The notes beneath the pieces are model-generated. The model did no database searches and was not told the origin of the DNA. It saw nothing but the letters and a program-made list of their open reading frames with translations. From contig JAIOPV010000033.1 in the NCBI GenBank assembly GCA_021413735.1, forward strand, positions 1 to 40,863: 40,863 bases of DNA. The letters are read 5' to 3'. A program made the translations under genes and the position numbers. The stretch is from Planctomycetota bacterium. GTDB lineage: Bacteria; Planctomycetota; Planctomycetia; Gemmatales; Gemmataceae. Of this stretch, positions 2,760 to 39,955 are shown piece after piece; the first letter of the stretch is position 1; every line of letters starts with the position of its first letter.

Positions 2760-3311
2760 ATGCAACTGAACACCAACCGCCTCAACAGGCTGTTGTCCTT
2801 CGAGGACATCGTGGAGAAGTACGGCGGACCTCCCAAGGTCTGGGAGAGTCTCCGACCTTACCTGCCTGTTTGGCAAAACCATGAAGGGCAGCCAATCTAC
2901 CTTGAATCGCAGGTGGATGACTTCCTTCGCGCACTTCAGCATCGCTGGTCAGTCCCAACCGCCACGACTGCGGTCGCGACGGTCGCCGAGCAGCCGGTCA
3001 CGGAAGAGTTCCTGACTATCGCGGAGGCTCAGGAACGATTCCTTGGCGGGAAGAGGTCGAGGGGATGGTGGTATAAGAAGGCGAAGTCTGGCAAACTGAT
3101 CGCTCACGATGCCGGCGGGTCGATCCTCCTCAAGACTACCGACATCGTTCGCTTCATCGACGCGATGCAGCACGAACACGAACCAGAGGAGTTGCCGCCG
3201 CTGACCCGGCCAGAAGATGTGACGGCGTCTCAGACCGCACCACCGGCGAAGCCTTCCAAGCTTCGAGGTGCAGCCGATCAGCGTTCAGGCATGAAGTTCT
3301 TCAGGAAGTGA
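2760..3311 (+). CDS. Excisionase-like DNA-binding protein with two helix-turn-helix segments
   Basis: The ATG at 2760 is preceded by AAGGAGAGC, giving 183 residues; an in-frame upstream extension to 2628 is open but lacks a ribosome binding site and conserved character. Residues 9-60 (LLSFEDIVEKYGGPPKVW... IYLESQVDDFL) and about 83-140 (EEFLTIAEAQERF... GWWYKKAKSGKL... DIVRFID) both have the helix-turn-helix-wing-helix layout of excisionase/HTH_17 domains. The C-terminus is Pro/Ala-rich and ends in basic MKFFRK. The gene converges on the integrase and overlaps its 3' end by 27 bp, a common int/xis layout. A role as recombination directionality factor is inferred. Confidence 0.6.
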   Translation: MQLNTNRLNRLLSFEDIVEKYGGPPKVWESLRPYLPVWQNHEGQPIYLESQVDDFLRALQHRWSVPTATTAVATVAEQPVTEEFLTIAEAQERFLGGKRSRGWWYKKAKSGKLIAHDAGGSILLKTTDIVRFIDAMQHEHEPEELPPLTRPEDVTASQTAPPAKPSKLRGAADQRSGMKFFRK

Positions 3312-4430
3312 ACCACGGTCCTTCATGACCTTGGTCATGATCGCGCGGACGCGATCCTTGTCCACCATTAGGTGGCCGTAGTGGCGCTCGATCATCGTAA
3401 CCGACGTGCCGATCAGGTCGGCCAGAACCTTGATCGAGCCAGCGTTGAGAAGCCAGTCGGTCGCGAAGGTGTGGCGAAAGCCGTAGGCGGTGGGGGCCGG
3501 CGTGATCTTCAGCTTCTTGGCGTACCATCGCAGGTTCACGGACATCGCCTCAGTCACCCACTTCGTCTTCCGTTTTGTTCGGAAGATCCGGCCTTCGGGG
3601 TAGCGGGCGATCCTCTCCTCGACCATTTCAGCCAGCCCGTCCGACAAGAAGATCACACGGTCCTTCCCCGTCCTCCGCGCGTTCTTCCAGACGAAGTCGT
3701 TCGGCCCAGGATCGCCGGGGTAGATGACACACTTGTCGGCCCTGTGGTAGTAGCGGGCCTCGACGTGGTATGCCTCCGAAGGGCGACAGCCCGTCTCGTA
3801 CAAGAATCGCAAGAGATCGGCGAACCCCTGATTCGACGCACCGACGAAGTCCATCAACTTCTTACAGGTCGCAGGTGGGATGTACGCCTCCTGGCCTCGG
3901 CTCCGCTTCTTGCCCCTGATCTGCACCGCCTTCGTATTCTCCAGGCAGTGCCGCGAAATCAGCCCCTGCCCCTTGGCCCAGTTCAACGCCGTCACAAGTG
4001 TCCGCAGGGCGATCCCCTGATAGGTCGGTTTCCACTTTACTGTCCTGTTCTTGGAGTCGATCCTGGGTTTCGCTTTCAGAGCGAGCCAATCGGTGATGTG
4101 GATGGGCTTCAGATCCCCGATGTGGCAGTCTCCGAATGCTTCCACAGCGGATGTGCAGGTGTCGAGCAGGATTTTCAACGACCGCTCCTGGCCGTTCCGT
4201 TCGAGGTGCTGGCCGTACAGGTCAACGATGAGCCGGACGGTGTTTCCCTGGTCGGCCACGTCCGCGACGCTGACGGCCATCAGTTCACGGAACTTGTCCA
4301 GGGCTGCAAGGTAGGTCGGCCCAGTCGGCCCATCGTCCGGCCCTTTGACCAAAGGGATCTGCCGCCCTTCAAAGTGGGTGAAGTATGCCTCTCGGCTCTT
4401 GTAGTACCGCACGGATGCTCGTCGTCCCAT
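3285..4430 (-). CDS. Tyrosine site-specific integrase
   Basis: A 381-residue phage-type integrase catalysing integration and excision of the element. The start at 4430 (MGRRASVRYYKSREAY) has GGAG 8 nt upstream; the frame stays open to a TTG at 4559 inside the attachment repeat, but that extension is unlikely to be translated. The N-terminal half is the arm- and core-binding region. In the catalytic domain TGCRPSEA gives Arg216, TGKDR gives Lys256, YGFRHTFATDW gives Arg319, and MIERHYGHL gives the nucleophile Tyr351. The first His of the HxxR box is Tyr and the later His is replaced in GTSVTMIE, a variant common in this branch. Its 5' end lies 114 bp from the duplicated mnmE tail, so the attachment site is the mnmE 3' end. 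Confidence 0.92.
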   Translation of the reverse strand: MGRRASVRYYKSREAYFTHFEGRQIPLVKGPDDGPTGPTYLAALDKFRELMAVSVADVADQGNTVRLIVDLYGQHLERNGQERSLKILLDTCTSAVEAFGDCHIGDLKPIHITDWLALKAKPRIDSKNRTVKWKPTYQGIALRTLVTALNWAKGQGLISRHCLENTKAVQIRGKKRSRGQEAYIPPATCKKLMDFVGASNQGFADLLRFLYETGCRPSEAYHVEARYYHRADKCVIYPGDPGPNDFVWKNARRTGKDRVIFLSDGLAEMVEERIARYPEGRIFRTKRKTKWVTEAMSVNLRWYAKKLKITPAPTAYGFRHTFATDWLLNAGSIKVLADLIGTSVTMIERHYGHLMVDKDRVRAIMTKVMKDRGSLPEELHA

Positions 4431-4543
4431 CGCCGTGTCTCCAGGCCAACTTCCCCTTGCTCCCAGAGTCAGTATAGGCATTCCGTGCGTATTCCGTGCG
4501 TGACCTTCCCCAGAAACCATGAAAAATGCCGAAAAACACGGCT

Positions 4544-4586
4544 CTATTTGCCGATGCAAAAGCGGTTACTTGCCGATGCAGAAGCG
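4544..4586 (-). repeat. Tandem duplicate of the mnmE tail: attachment-site core
   Basis: Read on the minus strand, 4586-4566 is the authentic mnmE end and 4564-4544 is a second 21-bp copy one base further on. The two agree at 18 of 21 positions and both read Arg-Phe-Cys-Ile-Gly-Lys-stop. The three differences are third-position C/T and A/G changes and TAA versus TAG. An 18-bp core at the end of trmE/mnmE is the known SGI1 target. This is therefore very likely the element's attachment site, here doubled. Confidence 0.75.
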
Positions 4587-5924
4587 CGAGAAGATTCGGT
4601 CCAGCAAGTCGTTCGTGTAGATCACGCCCGTGACTTCCCCCAACTGATCGAGTGCCGCCCGAAGCGCCGCCGCTGCCAACTCTGGCGGATCGTCGGACGC
4701 GACGTGTTCTCGCGCAGCCCGCAGGTGATCGGTACACGTCGCGATGTGGTGCCGGCAGCGACTTTGGCTCGGTGCGAGTGCTGGCCTCGCAAGCGAAACC
4801 ACACGCTCGGCGAGTTCACGGCGAAGTGCGTCGGTGCCTCCGGGGACGGAACACGGAATCGCCTGAACCGTCGAGCTTACGCCCCGACGCTCCCCAAGAT
4901 CACACTTCGTTCGCACAGGGACCACATCGGCACCGGTTGCCGCCAGTCGGTTCGCATCAGCAGAGTTGAAGTCGCCGCGTTCGTCGCACCACAGAATCAC
5001 GTCGGCCCGCGAAGTTGCATCGCGACCGAGCCGTTGTGCCTGCTCTTCGATCGTGTCGGTCGAATCCTGCCAGCCGGCCGTGTCGAGCAACTCGACGTTC
5101 ACGCCGGCAAGCTCGAACTGTTTCGTCAGGTAGTCGCGTGTCGTGCCCGGAATCGGACTCACCAGAGCAGTGCCGCCAGTCAACGCATTGAACAGGCTAC
5201 TCTTCCCAGCGTTCGGCAACCCCACGAGACTGATACGCACCGGTCGCCCCGAAACCGTGCGATCATCGAGTTGACGCAGCAACGCAACAAGCTGATTCAC
5301 CGCTGCGTCGATGCGTGCGAGCGTTTCCGATTCGCCAACGAAGTGAATGTCTTCGTCGGCGAAGTCGAGGGCCGCTTCGAGGTCCGCGAGCAGATTCAGT
5401 AGATCATCGCGAAGAACCGAGAGCGGTTGCGAAACGCCACCGGCAAGCTGTGTGAGTGCCGTCCGAAGTTCGGCATCGGTGCCGGCCTCGATGACAGCGT
5501 GAACGGCCTCGGCACGCGGCAAATCCTTCTTCCCGGCGAGGAATGCCCGCAATGTGAACTCGCCTGCTTGTGCTGATCGCGCTCCGGCGTTTAGCAGATC
5601 CGCAACGAGTCGTTCGACGAGCGGTGGCGAGCCAATGGTGTGGATTTCGGCGAGATCCTGACCCGTGTAGGAACGCGGCCCAGGGAAGAAGTACAGCGTC
5701 GCCGGCAGCGGTGAATGCACACCCGAAAGCCGCAGCGAACCGGGGGATGCGTAGCCGCGACGCGGAGAGGAGCGCGAGTCCGCGAGAAACATGCTGTCGA
5801 TGACCGTTCGGGTGTTTGGTCCGCTGATGCGCACGATGGCCCGCGCACCCGCTCCGGGTGCCGACGACACCGCAACAATGGTGTCCTCGGGATGTGGGCC
5901 CGCGCTCGATGCCGTGAGGGTCAC
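4566..5924 (-). CDS. mnmE: tRNA uridine-5-carboxymethylaminomethyl modification GTPase MnmE (TrmE)
   Basis: MnmE with MnmG modifies the wobble uridine of certain tRNAs in the cytoplasm, using methylenetetrahydrofolate. The N-terminal domain (DTIVAVSSAPGAGARAIVRISGP) is the folate-binding fold. A G domain is inserted in the helical region: GLPNAGKSSLFNAL (G1), PGTTRDY (G2), DTAGW (G3) and TKCD in place of NKxD (G4). The C-terminus is FCIGK, whose Cys is conserved. The GTG at 5924 overlaps the TGA of the upstream gene (GTGA), so translational coupling is likely and the product is 452 aa, the usual length. An ATG at 5960 lies inside the upstream gene. mnmG is not adjacent. The gene's 3' end is the integration target. 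Confidence 0.93.
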   Translation of the reverse strand: MTLTASSAGPHPEDTIVAVSSAPGAGARAIVRISGPNTRTVIDSMFLADSRSSPRRGYASPGSLRLSGVHSPLPATLYFFPGPRSYTGQDLAEIHTIGSPPLVERLVADLLNAGARSAQAGEFTLRAFLAGKKDLPRAEAVHAVIEAGTDAELRTALTQLAGGVSQPLSVLRDDLLNLLADLEAALDFADEDIHFVGESETLARIDAAVNQLVALLRQLDDRTVSGRPVRISLVGLPNAGKSSLFNALTGGTALVSPIPGTTRDYLTKQFELAGVNVELLDTAGWQDSTDTIEEQAQRLGRDATSRADVILWCDERGDFNSADANRLAATGADVVPVRTKCDLGERRGVSSTVQAIPCSVPGGTDALRRELAERVVSLARPALAPSQSRCRHHIATCTDHLRAAREHVASDDPPELAAAALRAALDQLGEVTGVIYTNDLLDRIFSRFCIGK

Positions 5925-6498
5925 ATGTCCAGCAAGAATGTGAAGTAGAACGGAAGCCACGCCAGACCCGCAAGGGCCAGCACAAGTGCGATGGAACGGT
6001 TGAGTTGACCTGTCCGCGAGATCTCACCCTCACCGAACGTCGCGTTCATGTAAAGATACAAAGCATACCCCGCGACCGGCGGAATCATCAGACCGAGAAT
6101 CGAGGTGAGAACCGCTCGTCTGGCGTATTCATCGCGTTCCGATTTGGGCGGATCAGGCTCCGCAGCCGCCGATGGCGAGATCGGTTCCGGCCGCTCCTCT
6201 CCTTCATCGGGTATCGCGGCCTGCGCTTGAGCCGCCAAATCTTCCGGCGTCACCTTCACGCCAAGTCCTTCGCCGTGTTCCCCGAACTTATTCTCCAGCA
6301 CCGCGATCGCCTTATCCGCGTCTCATCCCAGACCTGCACCTTGATGCCACCGATCGCATTGGAAAGCAACCAATCCATCGATACGAGGCTCGCATCGGCT
6401 ACGGTCGCCTGAATTCCAGCTTCATCGAGAGCGTTTTTCGCCAGGTGCGCCGGCGTCGGCTGGTCGAAGGTCGCGATTGTGACGAGTCGTTTGCCCAC
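5921..6498 (-). pseudogene. DUF2007-domain membrane protein, split by a frameshift
   Basis: From a GTG at 6498 the first frame encodes a DUF2007 (putative signal-transducing) domain: KRLVTIATFDQPTPAHLAKN, then LDEAGIQATVADAS and IKVQVWDE. It then loses sense near 6322. The expected continuation (DADKAIAVLENKFGEHGEG) is in another frame that runs to the TGA at 5921-5923. That part has an acidic linker, then two membrane segments (VLTSILGLMIPPVAGYALYLY and IALVLALAGLAWLPFYFTFLL). Restoring one base between 6320 and 6325 gives a single protein of about 192 residues. It is either a recent pseudogene or an error; both halves look well conserved. The C-terminal half is coupled to mnmE. Confidence 0.72.
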
Positions 6499-6577
6499 GG
6501 TATCCCCGTTCTTCCTGTTGTCGTTCTCAGTACACCGACAATACCCGAATGAGTGTGGTTCGCAAAGGAGCTGCTGA

Positions 6578-8095
6578 ATGACCGCTGCCGACGCTTATGC
6601 CGAACTGATCCGCCGAAGCAAAGAACTCGGCGTCCTGAACTCCTGCGCCGCCGTGCTGAGTTGGGATCAGCACACCTACATGCCCGCACGCGGAGCAGGT
6701 CTGCGCGGCGAACAAATGGCATTCCTCGCGTCGCTGTCGCATCAGAAGTTCACCGACCCCAAGATCGGCGAGTTGCTGGCCGCCGTCGAAGGCTCCGACT
6801 TGGTGAAGGAACCGGACGCCGATGCCTCTGCCAACGTCCGCGAACTTCGTCGAGCTTACGATCGCGCCACGAAGATTCCGGCGTCGCTCGTCGATGAATT
6901 GGCCCGCGTTACCACGGCCGCTCAGCAAGCATGGGAGCAGGCGAAGAAAGCGAATCAGTTCGCCACGTTCCGACCGCACCTCGAACGCATCGTCGAACTG
7001 AAGCGCCAGGAAGCCGATGCCGTCGGCTTCAAGGATCACCGCTACAACGCGCTCATTGAGGAATACGAGCCCGGCACCACCGTTGTCGAACTGAAGGAGC
7101 TGTTCGCCGGACTCACCAAGCGACTCGTGCCGTTGATTCAGAAGGTCGCGGATAGCCCGAAGAAGCCTGATCGCACCATTCTCGAACGCGACTTCCCGGT
7201 CGAACGGCAGAAGATCTTCGCGGAATCGGCTGCGGTCGCGCTCGGCTTCAACTTCGCAGCCGGTCGGCTCGACACGACTTCTCACCCGTTCTGTTCGGGG
7301 TTCGGGCCAGGCGATTGCCGCATCACGACACGCTACAATCCGCGGTTTTTCCCGGAGGCATTCTTCGGAGTGATGCACGAAACCGGGCACGCACTTTACG
7401 AACAGAACCTGCCAGCCGAGCACTTCGGAACGCCGCTCGGTGTCGCATGTTCATTCGGCATTCACGAGTCGCAATCGCGACTGTGGGAGAACCAAGTCGG
7501 ACGCAGCCGGCCGTTCTGGGATCATTTCTTCCCGCGACTTCGACAGACGTTCCCGGCGCTCGCGGATGTGAGCTTGGAGGCATTCTACTTCGCCGTCAAC
7601 GACGTGAAACCGTCGCTCATCCGAGTCGAGGCAGACGAGGCAACCTACAACCTTCACATCGCGTTACGCTTTGAATTGGAGCTGGCGTTACTGTCGGGGG
7701 ATTTGGCAGTTGTCGATCTTCCGGGCGCATGGAACGAGCGTTTCGCTGCTCTGTTCGGGCTGGCGGTGCCCGACGACGCTCGCGGATGTTTGCAAGACAT
7801 CCATTGGAGTTTCGGTGGTTTGGGCTACTTTCCCACGTACACTCTGGGCAACCTGTACGCTGCTCAGTTCATGGTCGCGGTGAAAAGTGATCTCGGAGCA
7901 GAATCGCTCACGGAGGACATGCGGCGGGGCGACTTCGGGCGACTGAAAGACTGGCTGGTTAATAACATCCATCGAAACGGACAGCGATATCGGGCCGGAG
8001 AATTATGCCGACGAGCGACTGGAAATCCGCTCTCCCCGGAATCTTTCCTTCTGTACCTGAATGAAAAAAATTCCGAACTGCGGGGTGTGTGCTAG
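6578..8095 (+). CDS. M32-family metallocarboxypeptidase (carboxypeptidase Taq type)
   Basis: A zinc or cobalt carboxypeptidase that trims C-terminal residues from peptides in the cytoplasm; 505 residues is the family length. The metal site is HETGH at residues 267-271, with the second-shell motif HESQSRLWE about 30 residues later. Other M32 signatures are HPFCSGFGPGDCRITTRY ahead of the metal site and GLGYFPTYTLGNLYAAQ near the C-terminus. The ATG follows AAAGGAG at good spacing. There is no signal peptide. It is transcribed divergently from the DUF2007 gene, with 79 bp between the starts. All key residues are present and the gene looks intact. Confidence 0.93.
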   Translation: MTAADAYAELIRRSKELGVLNSCAAVLSWDQHTYMPARGAGLRGEQMAFLASLSHQKFTDPKIGELLAAVEGSDLVKEPDADASANVRELRRAYDRATKIPASLVDELARVTTAAQQAWEQAKKANQFATFRPHLERIVELKRQEADAVGFKDHRYNALIEEYEPGTTVVELKELFAGLTKRLVPLIQKVADSPKKPDRTILERDFPVERQKIFAESAAVALGFNFAAGRLDTTSHPFCSGFGPGDCRITTRYNPRFFPEAFFGVMHETGHALYEQNLPAEHFGTPLGVACSFGIHESQSRLWENQVGRSRPFWDHFFPRLRQTFPALADVSLEAFYFAVNDVKPSLIRVEADEATYNLHIALRFELELALLSGDLAVVDLPGAWNERFAALFGLAVPDDARGCLQDIHWSFGGLGYFPTYTLGNLYAAQFMVAVKSDLGAESLTEDMRRGDFGRLKDWLVNNIHRNGQRYRAGELCRRATGNPLSPESFLLYLNEKNSELRGVC

Positions 8096-25624: not shown

Positions 25625-25706
25625 GGGCCGCCACGGAGGGCGGTCCAGGGCGGTCCCTACAAATCAAGCTGTTTTCTCGATTAGGGGCCGCCCTCCGTGG
25701 CGGCCC
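25625..25706. repeat. Inverted repeat between propeller and hydrolase genes
   Basis: Perfect 19-bp arms, GGGCCGCCACGGAGGGCGG (25625-25643) and its complement (25688-25706), separated by 44 bases. The left arm is followed by a second partial copy (CAGGGCGGTCCC). It ends 30 bp before the hydrolase start and may act as a terminator for the propeller gene or as a repeat of the REP class. Confidence 0.75.
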
Positions 25707-25735
25707 GGCTCTCCGCTCTCCCTGGAGTTTCCCTC

Positions 25736-26512
25736 ATGTTTCGGATGCTACTCGCCATGACCGCGTTCGCCGTATCGCCCGCCGTAGATGTCCTCGCGGC
25801 GGAGCCGGAAGCCAAGGAATTCAAGGCCGGCGACAAGGTTCTCCTGTATCGATTGCTGAAGCCAGCCGAGGTCGAAGCGGGCAAGAAGTATCCGCTTGTG
25901 GTGATGCTTCACGGGGCTGGCGAACGTGGCAAGGACAACTCGAAGCAACTCGTGTGGTTCTGGAATGCGAAGAACCCCAGCCCGATGACCCACCCGCAGG
26001 TCGTGGCTGCGAAGGCGTTCGTGCTCGTGCCGCAATGTCCGGATGGCAAGCAGTGGGTGGACGTGCCTTGGGGCAAGGGAAGCTACAAAAGCCCCGAGGT
26101 GAGCGAGCCGCTGAAGTTGACGCTCGACCTCGTGGATTTGCTCGTGAAGGAACTGCCGATCGACGCGGATCGTGTGAGTGTCATCGGGATGTCAATGGGT
26201 GGCTTCGGTGCGTTCGACGCGGCTCAACGTCGCCCCGATCTCTTCGCGGCGGTTGTGCCGATCTGCGGAGCGGGCGATCCGTCGAAGGCCAAGGAGATCG
26301 CGCATATCCCAGTGTGGGCGTTTCACGGCACGGATGACAGTGTCGTTCCGGTGTCGGGTTCGCGTGACATGGTGAAGGCGTTGAAGGATGCGGGTGCCAG
26401 CCCGAAGATCACGGAGTATCCGAAGGCAGGACACAACTCGTGGTCGCCCGCGTTCGCAGAGAAGGAGTTTTGGGATTGGGTCTTCGCCCAGAAACGAACG
26501 CCCAAGCAGTGA
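25736..26512 (+). CDS. Secreted alpha/beta hydrolase (prolyl-oligopeptidase / phospholipase-carboxylesterase type)
   Basis: 258 residues with a signal peptide (FRMLLAMTAFAVSPAVDVLAAE). Oxyanion region VVMLHGAGERG, nucleophile elbow GMSMGGFGAFD, acidic residue region HGTDDSVVPVSGS and catalytic His in KAGHNSW complete the Ser-Asp-His triad. The family contains secreted esterases and feruloyl-esterase-like enzymes; planctomycete genomes have many. The substrate is not predictable. It lies 117 bp after the propeller gene on the same strand. The ATG 25736 is chosen because it begins the signal peptide; the upstream frame to 25697 overlaps the hairpin. Confidence 0.88.
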   Translation: MFRMLLAMTAFAVSPAVDVLAAEPEAKEFKAGDKVLLYRLLKPAEVEAGKKYPLVVMLHGAGERGKDNSKQLVWFWNAKNPSPMTHPQVVAAKAFVLVPQCPDGKQWVDVPWGKGSYKSPEVSEPLKLTLDLVDLLVKELPIDADRVSVIGMSMGGFGAFDAAQRRPDLFAAVVPICGAGDPSKAKEIAHIPVWAFHGTDDSVVPVSGSRDMVKALKDAGASPKITEYPKAGHNSWSPAFAEKEFWDWVFAQKRTPKQ

Positions 26513-32006: not shown

Positions 32007-33105
32007 CTGATCGCTGCGCAAAGAACTAAACTTCGCGCGGCGTAAAATTGGGGTATGGAAAGCAGGACATCCTCTCCCCACGACTGGAAGGAATGGCGGC
32101 GACTCCGGGCCTGGGAGTTGAAGCGGCATGGTTGGACGCAACACGACATTGCCATCGCCTTGGGTGCGTCTGCCGGAGCGGTTAGCCAGTGGATGCGGGC
32201 GGCTGCTACCGACGGCCTGGATGCCTTGCGACATCATGCTTCGCCCGGTCATCCCGCCAAACTGACACCCGAGCAGCGACTGCTGATTGCCGACTGTCTG
32301 TGGCACGGAGCGGAAGCATATGGGTTCCGGGGCGATGTCTGGACGTGTGCTCGAGTGACCCAAGTCATCGAAAAGGAGTTCGGGGTCTCTTACCACAAAG
32401 ACCGTGTCTCCCGCGTGTTGAAGGAGTTGGGTTGGACACCGCAAATCCCGATCATACGAGCCATCCAACGCGACGAAGTAGCGATTGCCAACTGGCGAAC
32501 TGAGATGTGGCCGCGGTTGCTTCGACAGGCGTCCCGAGAACGCCGAACCCTAGTTTTCGTTGATGAATCAGGGTTCTACTTGTTGCCGGGCGTGGTCAGA
32601 ACCTACGGACCCAAAGGACAGACGCCAATTGTGGACGAGAAACAGAGCCGAGATCACTTGTCGGTAATGGCCGGTGTCACGCCCGCAGGCAAGCTGTACA
32701 CGCTCGTGCGTCAAGAGTCGTTGTCGAGTTCGCACAGTGTCGTTTTCCTGAAGCACCTGTTGTTGGAAACGGGGACGAAGTTATTGGTGATCTGGGATGG
32801 CTCGCCCATTCATCGCTGGGGAGCGGTGCAGGAGTTTCTCGCCGAAGGAGGTGCGAAACGAGTCCATCTGGAGGCGATGCCGGGATACGCTCCGGACCTG
32901 AGTCCGTTGGATCAAGGCTGTTGGCAACATCTCAAGCACGTCGAAATGCGGAACGTGGCGTGTTTAGACCTCGAAGAGTTGCATCTGGAAGTCCATTTGG
33001 CCATCGGACGCTTGCGGCAGAAAGCACGCCTGATTCGGTCGTTCTTTGCCGCAGCGGGTCTGACGCTACGCGGTGGGAAAGTTTAGTTCATTGCGCAGCG
33101 ATCAG
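32007..33105 (+). mobile_element. IS630-type insertion sequence, 1099 bp
   Basis: Terminal inverted repeats of 27 bp, starting CTGATCGCTGCGCAA at 32007 and complementary to the sequence ending at 33105, with one mismatch in 27. TA dinucleotides at 32005-32006 and 33106-33107 are the expected IS630/Tc1-mariner target duplication. One transposase gene fills the element. The ends and duplication are intact, implying recent insertion. Confidence 0.93.
32055..33086 (+). CDS. IS630 family transposase (catalytic Glu apparently replaced)
   Basis: 343 residues. The N-terminal helix-turn-helix (RAWELKRHGWTQHDIAIALGASAGAVSQWMR) is followed by a second one (YGFRGDVWTCARVTQVIEKEFGVSYHKDRVSRVLKELG, in segments). 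The DDE core has FVDESGFYLLPG (first Asp), LLVIWDGSPIHRW (second Asp) and PGYAPDLSPLDQGCWQHLK. In most relatives the last motif reads NPxEGxW or DEGVW, with the third acidic residue Glu; here it is DQGCW, so Gln stands there unless the preceding Asp serves. The frame is open throughout, so the protein would be made but its activity is doubtful. Confidence 0.9.
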   Translation: MESRTSSPHDWKEWRRLRAWELKRHGWTQHDIAIALGASAGAVSQWMRAAATDGLDALRHHASPGHPAKLTPEQRLLIADCLWHGAEAYGFRGDVWTCARVTQVIEKEFGVSYHKDRVSRVLKELGWTPQIPIIRAIQRDEVAIANWRTEMWPRLLRQASRERRTLVFVDESGFYLLPGVVRTYGPKGQTPIVDEKQSRDHLSVMAGVTPAGKLYTLVRQESLSSSHSVVFLKHLLLETGTKLLVIWDGSPIHRWGAVQEFLAEGGAKRVHLEAMPGYAPDLSPLDQGCWQHLKHVEMRNVACLDLEELHLEVHLAIGRLRQKARLIRSFFAAAGLTLRGGKV

Positions 33106-35828: not shown

Positions 35829-35942
35829 ATGGCGGCCGATGAAGATGAAAAATTCCTCACGCTCGAAACACGGGTTTCGGCCGAGGGTTCAGTGCTTAGA
35901 GCTCGTTCGGTAGCGACTGATGTTCCGCAAGGTGACTATTAA
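35829..35942 (+). CDS. 37-residue ORF coupled to the Pls-like synthetase
   Basis: ATG 35829 to TAA 35940-35942, whose last A is the first base of the synthetase ATG (TAATG). The peptide, AADEDEKFLTLETRVSAEG then SVLRARSVATDVPQGDY, is acidic at the N-terminus with no membrane segment. The frame is open upstream to 35715 but that part lacks a start signal. The overlap implies translational coupling. It could be a leader controlling the synthetase, or a small partner protein; MbtH-like proteins often sit here in NRPS operons, but this one is too short and lacks the MbtH Trp residues. Confidence 0.5.
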   Translation: MAADEDEKFLTLETRVSAEGSVLRARSVATDVPQGDY

Positions 35943-38900
35943 TGCCGCACGGTGTGACCTCTCCACGCCAGTCTGGGAAGATGGTTTTGCGAGATGAGTT
36001 CGACGACGAACCGCGACTGCTCCACGAATTCTTCACCCGAGCAGCCCGACGCTGGCCGGGGAACGTTGCCATTGATGTTCCGCCGTCGCCTTCACACCCA
36101 CAGCGTCGCACCCTCACATACTCCGAACTCGACCGGCAATCCGACGCGCTCGCTGCGTACCTCCGCGAGTTCGTGACGGGTGAATACGTCGTTGCGGTCA
36201 TCCTTCCGCGAAACTCCGAACACGTCTACCTCGCACAGCTCGCGATCCTCAAAGCAGGCGCGGCGTACGTGTGCGTCGATCCGTCGTTCCCCGATATTCA
36301 GGTGAACACGATCCTCGCTGACGCTCGCCCGGTGGCTGTGCTGACCGATGCCGTCGGGCTGAGTCGAACCCGCGGTCTCGACGCCTTCCAGGGCTGCGTT
36401 GTGGATGTGGTTGGCTGGGCGGCGAAGATCGACACTCGCGTCTCGACACTCGCTCCAGCAAGTTGGCTCACGCCGAGCAGTCTCGCGTACGTGATCTACA
36501 CCTCCGGCACCACGGGTCGCCCCAAGGGCGTGATGATCGAACACGCGGCTGTCGCGAATCTCGTTCGCGGCGATCTCGCCACGTTCCCCGCGAAGCCCAA
36601 CGACCGCGTCTCCCAAAACTCCTCATGCGCCTACGATTCGAGCGTCGCGGAAATCTGGATGGCGTTCGCGGCCGGTGCCACACTCGTCGTCATGGATGAT
36701 GATGTAATACGCCTCGGACCGGACCTCGCCTCGTGGATGCGAGCCGAGCGAATCAGCGTGTTCTCCCCACCGCCAACGCTGCTTCGCACAAGCGGTTGCG
36801 AGAACCCGAAACTCGCGCTGCCAGAGTTGACTCGCCTGCACGTTGGGGGTGAACCGCTCCCGCGCGATGTCGCCGACCGCTGGGCACCCGGCAAAACCTT
36901 CGTCAACGATTACGGCCCCACCGAGTGCTCCGTCGTTGCGCTGCGGGCTGTGATTCGTGCTGGCGATGAGATCACGATTGGGAAGCCCGTGCCCGGCATT
37001 CTCGCGTGGGTCTTGAACGAACGTCTTGAAGAAGTGGCGACTGGCGAAACGGGTGAACTCTGTCTCGGCGGTGCGGGACTTGCTCGCGGTTACCTGAACG
37101 ACGCCGAACTCACGGCTCGCAAGTTCCCGGTTCATCCCCGATTCGGTCGCATTTACCGCACGGGCGATCTCGTTCACCGCGACGCCGACGGCAACTACCA
37201 CTGCCACGGCCGCATTGACTCGCAGGTGAAGATTCGCGGTTATCGCATCGAACTGGAAGCGATCGAGTCGAGGCTCGCGGCATGTGCTGGCGTGCGTGAA
37301 GCCGCTTGCCGCGTGCAAGGCGAAGGACCGCAACAGCAGATCGTGGCGTTCATTGTGCCCATCGATCCGGCGAATCCGCCGCACTTCGACGACCTGAAAA
37401 CGGCAGTGCGTGTGCAGCTTCCCGAATACACCGTGCCTGCACATTTCGGGCTGCTGGCGTCGCTACCAACAGCCGTCAGTGGCAAGCTGAATCGGCGGGC
37501 GTTGCCGACCCTGGAGATTCACGCCCCCGAACCACGCGGGCACATCGTCGACCCACGCGACGAGTTCGAGCAGAAACTCGCCGTCGCCGTCCAGCGCGTG
37601 TTTGACCTGAAGGAACGCGTCTCGGTCGATCACGATTTCTTCAACGATCTCGGCGGCGATTCGCTGCGTGCCGCCATGCTGATCTCGACGCTACGCGATG
37701 ACCCCGCAACGGCTTCGCTCACAGTCCGCGACCTGTACGAAGCCCGCACCATCGCGGGACTGGCGAAACGTGCCCGACCGCTCACGGCACACAAGGTTGC
37801 CACGACCGAACCCACGCCACGAGTGAATCCATTCTTAGCGACCGTGGTGCAGATGTCGTGGTTGTTAATCGGGCTGGTGATTGCGGGACCGCTGCTTTAT
37901 CTGCTGGCGTTCCATGTCGTTCCCGATCTGGCCCAAAGCCTTGGGCTGAACTCGTTCCTGCTCGCGACGCCGTTGATGTACGCGAGCGGCATCTGCCTGT
38001 ATCTCGTTGGCTCCGTGGTCTTCGCCGTGCTGGTGAAGAAGGCTTTGATCGGCCGGTATCAACCGACCCGTGCGCCGGTTTGGGGGAGCTTCTATGTCCG
38101 CAACTGGATCGTTCAGCAAACCGTGCGGATCATTCCCTGGCAACTCCTCGAAGGCACCGTTTTTCAGAGCGTCGTGTTGCGCGCACTGGGTGCAAAAATC
38201 GGTTACGGCGTACACATTCACCGCGGCGTAAACCTGACGCAAGGCGGCTGGGATCTGCTGGAGATTGGTGACAACGTCACCATCAGTCGAGATGCGACGA
38301 TTCGACTCTTCGATCTCGAAGATGGGCAGATCATCGTTGGGCCGATCAGCATCGGAACCGATTGCACGCTCGATGTTCGTGCGGGAGTTGCCCCCGATAC
38401 CTGCATGAAACCTAACAGCTATCTCGCAGCGCAAGCGTACCTGCAATCGGGCGACACGGTCCCCGAGGGGAAACGCTGGGCGGGCATTCCCGCTGCCCCC
38501 GCTGGCGAGGCTCCCCCGGCTCCTGAGTTACCCGAGGGCAGTCGCGAGATGTCGCCGGTGATGCACGGTATCGTGCTGTTCGCGGCGCGGCTGCTGCTCG
38601 CCGGTATGACGATGTTGCCGTTGGTGCTCATTGCAATGGCGTATTGCTCGATCCAGGGGATCGACACCGGCGTTGCGACCGAATGGCTCCTGCATCCCTC
38701 GATTGATGTCGAGGAATTCTTGGTCTCGGCGCTGCTGGTCGTGTGCATCATTCCCGCGATGCTCGTCTCTCGCTGCTTCTCGATACGAACGCTCGGAAAG
38801 ATTCCCGAAGGCGTGGTGAGTCGGTGGAGCCTGACGTACATTCGCGTGATCCTGAAGCGCGACATTCTTGACTGGTCGAACGACTGGCTCAACGGCACGC

Positions 38901-39955
38901 TGATGTGGCGTGTCTGGCTGCGTGGTGCGGGGATGAAAATTGGTCGCGACACGGAGTTGAGCACGATCTTCGACACGATTCCGGAGTTGGTCGAGCTCGG
39001 TTCGGGGACGTTCTTCGCAGATGGAATTTACCTTGGCTCGCCGGTCGTTCACCGTGGCACCGTGACCCTCGCTCGCACGAAACTCGGCGACGGCGTCTTT
39101 TTGGGGAACTATGCGATCATCCCCGCTGGTCAGACGATTCCGAGTGGAGTGTTGCTGGGCGTCTGCACAGTGGCGGACGATCGGATCATCGCTCCTGGCA
39201 CGTCGTGGTTTGGGGAACCGCCGTTCGAGCTGCCGAAGCGTGAGATCGTGGAAGCCGACGCCAGCCTGACGCACAAGCCGTCGTGGATTCGATACGTGAA
39301 CCGCGTCTTCTGGGAACTGTTGCGATTCGCGATTCCGCTCGTGCCAATGCTGTTGATCCTTGCGTGGTTCGCGGCCATCGAGATGGCGGAGCCAGAGGTT
39401 TCCTTTGAGGTACTCGTTTTCGGCGTGGTGCCGTTGCTCGATCTGGGTTTCTTACTGGCGTTGGCGTTCCTTGGGCTTGCGATGAAGTGGTTCCTGCTCG
39501 GTCGCGTTCGCCCGGCGACACATATGCTCTGGTCGTGTTGGTGCAGCCGGTGGGACTTTAACTACACGGCGTTTCATCACCTTGCGGTAACTCCGGCACA
39601 GACGCTCGAAGGCACTGTACTGTTGAACTGGTATCTCCGAGCGCTCGGCGTGAAACTCGGGCGAAACGTGATTGTGGGAGACGTATTCGCGTTTGTTGTT
39701 GATCCGGACATGATCGAAGTGCAGGACGGCGCCACGGTGAACTGTCTGTTCCAGGCTCACACGTTTGAGGATCGGGTCTTGAAGCTTGATCGCGTTGTGA
39801 TCGGGAAGAACGCATCGGTGGGAACCGGTGCTGTGCTGCTGTATGGCTGTCACATTGGCGATGGCGCTCGAGTTCTTGGGCATAGCGTTGTGATGAAGCG
39901 CGAGCGACTGCAACCGGATCATGTCTATGCTGGCTGCCCAACCCGTCTGATTTGA
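35942..39955 (+). CDS. Membrane non-ribosomal peptide synthetase of the Pls (poly-lysine synthetase) architecture
   Basis: 1337 residues. Adenylation domain, about residues 20-520: A3 YTSGTTGRPKGV, A4 YDSSVAE keeping Asp235 (GrsA numbering) for the amino group, A5 NDYGPTE, A7 YRTGDLV, A8 GRIDSQVKIRGYRIELEAIE, A10 Lys in SGKLNRRAL. Thiolation domain: Ser574 in DLGGDSLRAA. No condensation or thioesterase domain follows. The C-terminal 700 residues have six or so membrane segments (first WLLIGLVIAGPLLYLLAFHV) alternating with three hexapeptide-like soluble blocks (GAKIGYGVHI, GMKIGRDTEL, GVKLGRNVIVGD), the TIGR02353 NRPS terminal region. Poly-epsilon-lysine synthetase has this layout, making an isopeptide homopolymer. 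The monomer here is not predictable. Confidence 0.9.
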   Translation: MPHGVTSPRQSGKMVLRDEFDDEPRLLHEFFTRAARRWPGNVAIDVPPSPSHPQRRTLTYSELDRQSDALAAYLREFVTGEYVVAVILPRNSEHVYLAQLAILKAGAAYVCVDPSFPDIQVNTILADARPVAVLTDAVGLSRTRGLDAFQGCVVDVVGWAAKIDTRVSTLAPASWLTPSSLAYVIYTSGTTGRPKGVMIEHAAVANLVRGDLATFPAKPNDRVSQNSSCAYDSSVAEIWMAFAAGATLVVMDDDVIRLGPDLASWMRAERISVFSPPPTLLRTSGCENPKLALPELTRLHVGGEPLPRDVADRWAPGKTFVNDYGPTECSVVALRAVIRAGDEITIGKPVPGILAWVLNERLEEVATGETGELCLGGAGLARGYLNDAELTARKFPVHPRFGRIYRTGDLVHRDADGNYHCHGRIDSQVKIRGYRIELEAIESRLAACAGVREAACRVQGEGPQQQIVAFIVPIDPANPPHFDDLKTAVRVQLPEYTVPAHFGLLASLPTAVSGKLNRRALPTLEIHAPEPRGHIVDPRDEFEQKLAVAVQRVFDLKERVSVDHDFFNDLGGDSLRAAMLISTLRDDPATASLTVRDLYEARTIAGLAKRARPLTAHKVATTEPTPRVNPFLATVVQMSWLLIGLVIAGPLLYLLAFHVVPDLAQSLGLNSFLLATPLMYASGICLYLVGSVVFAVLVKKALIGRYQPTRAPVWGSFYVRNWIVQQTVRIIPWQLLEGTVFQSVVLRALGAKIGYGVHIHRGVNLTQGGWDLLEIGDNVTISRDATIRLFDLEDGQIIVGPISIGTDCTLDVRAGVAPDTCMKPNSYLAAQAYLQSGDTVPEGKRWAGIPAAPAGEAPPAPELPEGSREMSPVMHGIVLFAARLLLAGMTMLPLVLIAMAYCSIQGIDTGVATEWLLHPSIDVEEFLVSALLVVCIIPAMLVSRCFSIRTLGKIPEGVVSRWSLTYIRVILKRDILDWSNDWLNGTLMWRVWLRGAGMKIGRDTELSTIFDTIPELVELGSGTFFADGIYLGSPVVHRGTVTLARTKLGDGVFLGNYAIIPAGQTIPSGVLLGVCTVADDRIIAPGTSWFGEPPFELPKREIVEADASLTHKPSWIRYVNRVFWELLRFAIPLVPMLLILAWFAAIEMAEPEVSFEVLVFGVVPLLDLGFLLALAFLGLAMKWFLLGRVRPATHMLWSCWCSRWDFNYTAFHHLAVTPAQTLEGTVLLNWYLRALGVKLGRNVIVGDVFAFVVDPDMIEVQDGATVNCLFQAHTFEDRVLKLDRVVIGKNASVGTGAVLLYGCHIGDGARVLGHSVVMKRERLQPDHVYAGCPTRLI

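Follow-up and report, generated by a model that had tools for sequence, protein, structure and literature searches.

We report here that a 40,863-nucleotide stretch of DNA from a Planctomycetota bacterium of the Gemmataceae (GenBank assembly GCA_021413735.1, contig JAIOPV010000033.1, positions 1 to 40,863; hereafter the window) carries at 35942–39955, on the forward (+) strand like every feature of the synthetase region located below, a gene for a 1337-residue membrane protein resembling nonribosomal peptide synthetases (NRPSs). Our best explanation, which we put forward tentatively, is that the product is a single-module, Pls/PosA-like inner-membrane synthetase that takes an arginine-like basic substrate in a pocket whose charge has been relocated, and makes a cationic product. 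The adenylation (A) domain would adenylate the amino acid and load it on to the protein's own carrier (thiolation, T) domain, both recognized here by their profiles and motifs, and the membrane part, with its predicted three helix pairs and three acyltransferase-like beta-helix domains, would link the units, giving a cationic oligomer or polymer. Ancestrally, the pocket of the subfamily to which we assign the enzyme (specificity code DSECYGGVTK) may have taken L-arginine or some bulky basic amino acid resembling it, and not lysine, ornithine, diaminobutyrate (Dab) or diaminopropionate (Dap), as one published assay suggests (PMC10522769, main text). The Gemmata lineage would then have rebuilt this pocket with His (code position 5) and Asp (position 7), and the window's species would have replaced Glu at position 3 with Ala, so that the charge that binds the side chain would most likely now sit at position 7 instead of position 3.

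The gene is real and is evolving by purifying selection, as the open reading frame (ORF) call, the domain matches and the substitution pattern all indicate. Its start at ATG 35942 is backed by the Shine–Dalgarno-like run AAGGTGA (35929–35935), six bases ahead of it, and by alignment with a same-genus homologue (L026), which begins MPQGVSS against MPHGVTS in the window. The ratio of non-synonymous to synonymous substitution rates (dN/dS) is 0.125, 0.139 and 0.166 against the same-genus copies of G010, G013 and G017, values that are approximate because dS exceeds 1 in all three comparisons, and 0.041–0.131 in three closer pairs among the relatives. The A domain (about residues 31–523; 36032–37510) matches PF00501, PF13193 and TIGR01733 (362.2 bits, above that model's cut-off), and alignment places the catalytic Lys515 (Lys517 of GrsA, motif A10) at 37484–37486; the carrier domain (37574–37768; PF00550) contains an aligned GGDSL motif with the codon of the attachment Ser at 37661–37663; and the membrane/polymerization region occupies 37829–39952. 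By residue, the Pfam matches are AMP-binding at 31–385, AMP-binding_C at 441–515, PP-binding at 545–609 and hexapeptide repeats at 1285–1317. Neither a condensation nor a thioesterase domain was found in the synthetase by Pfam and NCBIfam profile searches, in keeping with a preliminary description of the locus, and the order A–T–membrane is that of the Pls/PosA class; the Pls-like architecture that this description had noticed in a planctomycete is thus borne out by domains and model alike.

The A-domain model (predicted local distance difference test, pLDDT, 87.8) shows the standard fold of its class, with the TycA variant 5n82 as top match [Z 55.1, root-mean-square deviation (rmsd) 1.5 Å over 385 residues], and superposes on the A domain of PosA (8g98) with Z 50.3 and rmsd 2.0 Å over 381 residues. 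In an AlphaFold2 model of the carrier and membrane part (812 residues, pLDDT 89.1, predicted template-modelling score 0.88), groups of long helices at 37829–38047, 38555–38791 and 39284–39499 are taken as three pairs, giving a predicted topology of six transmembrane helices, with three soluble, strand-rich beta-helix domains at about 38129–38521, 38924–39241 and 39644–39952; the same layout is reported for Pls (PMC10522769). The first of these beta-helix domains resembles hexapeptide acyltransferases, best the serine acetyltransferase 3mc4 (Z 15.3, rmsd 2.0 Å over 103 residues); the structure search covered mainly this domain, and the other two were read from the secondary structure of the model. 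A motif near the C terminus, QAHTFEDRVLK (39752–39784), keeps its Q, H, F, E, D, R and K unchanged throughout the 44 membrane domains aligned, three Pls-type ones included.

On sequence comparison the membrane domain belongs to a separate subfamily that spans several phyla. A search of genome contigs with a membrane-domain alignment gave at least 594 stretches and at least 210 relatives, of which the best 80 were used; Planctomycetota, Verrucomicrobiota, Acidobacteriota, Actinomycetota, Pseudomonadota, Armatimonadota, Gemmatimonadota, Bdellovibrionota and Myxococcota are, going by record titles, among the matches listed, many of them from metagenome-assembled genomes (MAGs). The membrane-domain tree, built by a quick method with the Shimodaira–Hasegawa-like approximate likelihood-ratio test (SH-aLRT) as sole support, had 86 rows, then 85 without the very long branch of L022; outside it stand 11 duplicates of genomes, L119 and four loci that lack an A-domain core (L055, L091, L101 and L105). 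In this tree the Pls-type rows separate from all others, and the window's enzyme falls, by its membrane domain, with the subfamily that we define by the code DSECYGGVTK: 17 rows from the window's family group with a single gammaproteobacterial MAG row, L115 (SH-aLRT 99), and rows from other phyla with the code DSECYGGVTK surround this group. Membrane-domain identity is 56–76% inside the window's own clade; it is 43–54% between the window and the subfamily rows outside its group (A domain 51–62%), and 28–30% between the window and the Pls-type rows (A domain 39–41%). Within the window's order a TIGR02353-like protein occurs in 21 of 102 genomes (E ≤ 1e-30). Eighteen of the 21, the window's included, have the window-type membrane domain (17 at 347–380 bits and a partial copy, G014, at 226.5), and three (G006, G028 and G051) have proteins above the cut-off of TIGR02353, at 612–670 bits, that are of Pls type. 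Within the genus the synthetase is found in 9 of 19 genomes, among them Gemmata sp. IIL30 (G009, locus L043, the same sequence), and of 392 planctomycete genomes drawn evenly, 15 had a match at E ≤ 1e-60, one of them above the cut-off. One of the three genomes with a Pls-type gene, G028, has a second copy (L022, code DFECLSAVTK) beside the Pls-type L040.

The substrate pocket of the window's enzyme reads, by alignment, DSASHGDVVK. Position 1 (GrsA 235) is Asp232 (36635–36637), position 3 (GrsA 239, Glu221 of PosA) is Ala236 (GCG; 36647–36649), position 5 (GrsA 299) is His300 (36839–36841) and position 7 (GrsA 322, Thr304 of PosA) is Asp323 (36908–36910), with positions 8 and 9 read from the YGPTE motif; L062 and L064 have GWGPTE in its place, and their position 7 was taken by eye as Asp and Gly, respectively. 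The ruler used for this reading was checked, since it recovers the first nine letters of the PosA code DMEHNGTVSK, and D-A-E-S-I-G-T-V-V from the A domain of Pls (7WEW). The table of codes comprises 92 distinct sequences from 104 rows after removal of duplicates (four of them, L022 and L040–L042, lying outside the subfamily); 11 of 94 loci were excluded for want of an A-domain core within the synthetase ORF. DSECYGGVTK is found exactly in 67 of the 92 and the form DS(E/A/S)xHGD(V/I)(V/T)K in 14, 13 of these being planctomycete and the other, L115, belonging to the gammaproteobacterial MAG; three have the Pls-type code DAESIGTVIK, five have other codes, two are unreadable at positions 7–9 and one is missing positions 1–3. 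The window's enzyme shares five of ten positions with DSECYGGVTK, differing at 3, 4, 5, 7 and 9. Set against the epsilon-poly-L-lysine synthetase Pls, a comparison that the preliminary description had proposed, it has the same layout and shares five of nine readable positions (Asp-1, Ser-4, Gly-6, Val-8 and Val-9), with Ser for Ala-2, Ala for Glu-3, His for Ile-5 and Asp for Thr-7. We set it apart from Pls because of these four positions and of its subfamily.

What these replacements may mean is suggested by work on PosA, the delta-poly-L-ornithine synthetase of Acinetobacter baumannii (8G95–8G98), which is likewise encoded by a solitary gene and has the same A–T–membrane layout and A-domain fold (PMC10522769). 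The position-3 Glu that the window's enzyme lacks is described there as conserved in all cationic homopolyamino acid (CHPA) enzymes, and it is essential in PosA, the E221A variant having undetectable activity; Thr304, where the window has Asp, touches the terminal amine of the substrate, and T304A is 33-fold worse (PMC10522769). An acidic residue is therefore gone from one substrate-contacting position of the window's pocket and present at another. The same report finds that Bdello_A, a Bdellovibrionales A domain (OFZ39577.1) with the code DSECYGGVTK, prefers L-Arg over diamino acids; no polymer is shown for it in that text. Its code occurs in the window's family as well (L030 of G060), and in our comparisons it was represented by a proxy from the Bacteriovoracaceae (L084).

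Position-3 Glu has been lost in three tips of the tree (the window, L031 of G013 and L035 of G017), which requires at least three changes, and all three losses fall in the Asp-7 background, which makes up 11.9% of the tree length (p = 0.0017 for a draw proportional to branch length). Twelve further rows with Asp-7 retain Glu-3 and look as intermediates would. Because Asp-7 lies at a substrate contact of PosA and Glu-3 is lost only in lineages with Asp-7, we infer that the charge has been relocated; with the charge moved to position 7, the substrate would still be basic. Elsewhere in the tree a Bryobacterales homologue, L062, has gained Asp-7 independently and keeps Tyr-5 and Glu-3.

As to the chemistry of the membrane domain, a natural exchange of domains is informative. 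Locus L034 of genome G007 (3899–8092; the same as L056, Fimbriiglobus sp. isolate 338R) joins a Pls-type A–T part to a membrane domain of the window's subfamily in one ORF. In blocks of 60 columns its A–T part is 35–69% identical to Pls-type proteins against 28–54% to the window's enzyme (one block being equal), and its membrane domain is 36–70% identical to the window's against 12–45% to the Pls type; the switch comes just past the carrier domain, at about residues 607–650 of the window's protein, with the open frame unbroken. The pocket code of L034, DFEALGTVTK, has the position-2 Phe given for Dap and Dab synthetases (PMC10522769). The subfamily membrane domain therefore may take diamino-acid donors, and probably does handle donors of that type, hence chemistry like that of Pls.

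Several observations weigh against a Pls-like enzyme for an arginine-like substrate. The side chain of arginine offers no ordinary amine through which an isopeptide bond could form. The preliminary description had taken the C terminus to be of TIGR02353 type, as in Pls; the match is present (residues 685–1333), but at 365.4–367.8 bits it stays under the curated cut-off of 423.1. By its letters alone the pocket code is no nearer to DSECYGGVTK than to Pls, and a relocated charge could serve lysine too. The coupling of Glu-3 loss to Asp-7 was spotted post hoc, which tempers its p value, and a pocket without Glu-3 might instead have acquired a new, neutral substrate. The domain swap in L034 might be an assembly chimera (its source is a MAG of 960 contigs), though the switch coincides with a domain border. 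Finally, the Bdello_A assay used the A domain on its own, the activity was modest, and the authors suggest that the true substrate may be a larger analogue (PMC10522769).

Considering the other explanations, the one that survives best, unlikely as we think it, is that the pocket, once Glu-3 had gone, became open to a neutral, polar or aromatic substrate, yielding a non-cationic polymer or conjugate. Ala-3 itself and the departure from the ancestral code at all five differing positions would fit such a change; against this, Asp-1 and Lys-10 are retained and the three losses all occurred in lineages already acidic at position 7. It is distinctly unlikely that there is no polymerization at all and that the membrane domain hands over just one aminoacyl group, the acceptor being a lipid, glycan or protein. 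The hexapeptide O- and N-acetyltransferases that the first beta-helix domain resembles are one-acyl enzymes, but the same layout polymerizes in Pls and PosA (PMC10522769), the QxHxFEDRxxK motif is common to Pls-type proteins, and the membrane domain has been naturally joined to a Dap/Dab-like A–T part.

The preliminary description had proposed an epsilon-poly-lysine product. Poly-lysine is familiar as a food preservative, and the domain order, the TIGR02353 similarity, the lack of condensation and thioesterase domains, the solitary gene (as reported for posA; PMC10522769), the five code letters shared with Pls and the small residue at position 2 in both (Ser and Ala) would all suit such a product. 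We nevertheless regard it as very unlikely for this enzyme, the code being off that of Pls at four positions and lacking the Glu without which PosA is inactive, the membrane domain lying in the other subfamily, far closer in identity to its own clade than to the Pls-type proteins of the same order, and the one assayed enzyme with the subfamily code not having preferred diamino acids (PMC10522769). By sequence, G028, G051 and G006 offer better candidates for a poly-lysine maker of the order in their Pls-type genes (L040, L041 and L042, respectively), which share the layout of the window's gene and differ from it in exceeding the TIGR02353 cut-off, in their near-Pls code and in their membrane domains, only 29–30% identical to the window's. 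That the gene is decaying and its pocket change a loss of function, as its patchy presence in the genus and the threefold loss of Glu-3 might hint, is extremely unlikely given the low dN/dS, the full-length ORF and the intact core motifs of the A, T and membrane parts.

Elsewhere, some synthetase genes of the subfamily have a candidate partner. Among the best 80 relatives, 29 of the 72 assessable loci (eight not being assessable) have a SET-domain methyltransferase gene just upstream on the same strand, encoding a protein of mostly 165–215 residues (PF00856 in the one tested; examples are L063, L066, L069, L072 and L099), and in 19 of the 29 a possible synthetase start overlaps the SET stop by four bases. 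The gene is found in Actinomycetota (12 of 12), Verrucomicrobiota (7 of 10), Armatimonadota (3 of 4), Acidobacteriota (2 of 7), Planctomycetota (2 of 15), Pseudomonadota (2 of 18) and at one further locus, six named phyla in all, and in none of the assessable loci of Gemmatimonadota (0 of 3), Bdellovibrionota (0 of 1) and Myxococcota (0 of 1). Among the 29 matches, those of L065 (66.9 bits) and L115 (76.7 bits) are weak, and L058 has its nearest start 306 bases further along. NHxCxP, a Tyr and CxCGxxxC are kept in all 13 SET proteins aligned, and the three tried against NCBIfam gave no name at E ≤ 0.001. No SET gene was found in the window or, at E ≤ 1e-10, in its own genome; among 95 genomes from the window's family, 23 show weaker matches (48–88 bits), none of which lies in the examined stretches round the synthetase genes. 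The SET gene is the subfamily's recurrent coupled gene, and it is a lead to the building block or its modification. We do not claim that pocket drift is tied to loss of the SET gene, since sphingomonad copies without it keep DSECYGGVTK and L115, of the HGD form, has a weak SET match.

The short ORF of 37 codons at 35829–35942 (+), which the preliminary description had coupled in phase to the synthetase, does exist and does end on the synthetase start as TAATG; we rejected it as a leader or coupled peptide. We take it to be a chance frame because its ATG lies 113 bases from that of the synthetase and is out of phase with it, its G+C content at third codon positions is 43% against 72% in the synthetase gene, inspection showed no Shine–Dalgarno-like run ahead of it, shuffling the 300 upstream bases singly 5000 times gives an ATG ORF at least as long, with any end point, on 2316 occasions, and a like peptide was found in none of eight relatives; the pocket Asp at GrsA 235, whose conservation had been raised together with that of this ORF, is kept. 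In L026 of G016, which has the upstream DNA most alike and is not the nearest by membrane domain, neither frame nor TAATG is preserved, and alignment recovers the GCAAGGT core of the Shine–Dalgarno region; a 31-base block (35841–35871; GAAGATGAAAAATTCCTCACGCTCGAAACAC) is identical there though its flanks diverge, and is perhaps a regulatory leader. A TGATG stop/start overlap occurs in three of the eight relatives (G009, G010 and G012, near kin of each other), ending ORFs of 4, 4 and 31 codons with unlike peptides; the other five have no overlap.

No dedicated partner gene appears to adjoin the window's synthetase. In a Pfam scan of 29 window ORFs, a subset that includes the synthetase, there was neither a transporter nor a second NRPS, and the only peptidase-like genes, an M32 carboxypeptidase (6578–8095) and an alpha/beta-hydrolase (25697–26512), lie more than 9 kb off; no MbtH gene was found in the organism's own genome (9.8 Mb, 95.74% complete), which agrees with the preliminary remark that transporter, degrading enzyme and MbtH were not nearby. 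The same genome has two matches to PF01648, the 4'-phosphopantetheinyl transferase family. Clustering of neighbours over 20 stretches and the window gave no widely shared partner round the copies of the window's family; the best shared are a FUR-type regulator (five loci) and endonuclease V (four loci), which probably reflect mere kinship, and a sigma-factor-like gene (three loci). The last lies upstream of the synthetase in L023 (1177–2613), L025 (9138–10573) and L038 (6471–7013), a gene for a protein of about 300 residues intervening in two of the three (the one tested having no Pfam match), and a role in regulation is possible. Elsewhere on the window's contig are a transposase ORF with DDE_3 and winged-helix domains (32055–33086) and an ORF of the phage integrase family (3285–4559).

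Finally, every product listed for Pls/PosA enzymes is a cationic polymer of diamino acids, and several have antimicrobial activity (PMC10522769); among the papers listed from open-access main text we recognized none on a poly-arginine synthetase, a planctomycete Pls or a SET gene beside Pls. It is possible, if on the doubtful side, that the window's enzyme, together with relatives bearing DSECYGGVTK in eight phyla (by record title), forms an undescribed class of membrane synthetase polymerizing a bulky basic unit new for such enzymes, either arginine or a lysine methylated by the translationally coupled SET protein, and that the Gemmata branch lost the partner and moved its pocket charge from position 3 to position 7. 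A different and near-invariant pocket in planctomycetes, verrucomicrobia, acidobacteria, actinomycetes and sphingomonads suggests that a common biopolymer has been overlooked, and the natural variants of the Gemmata branch, among them the intermediates with both Glu-3 and Asp-7, should allow direct tests of how A-domain specificity evolves.

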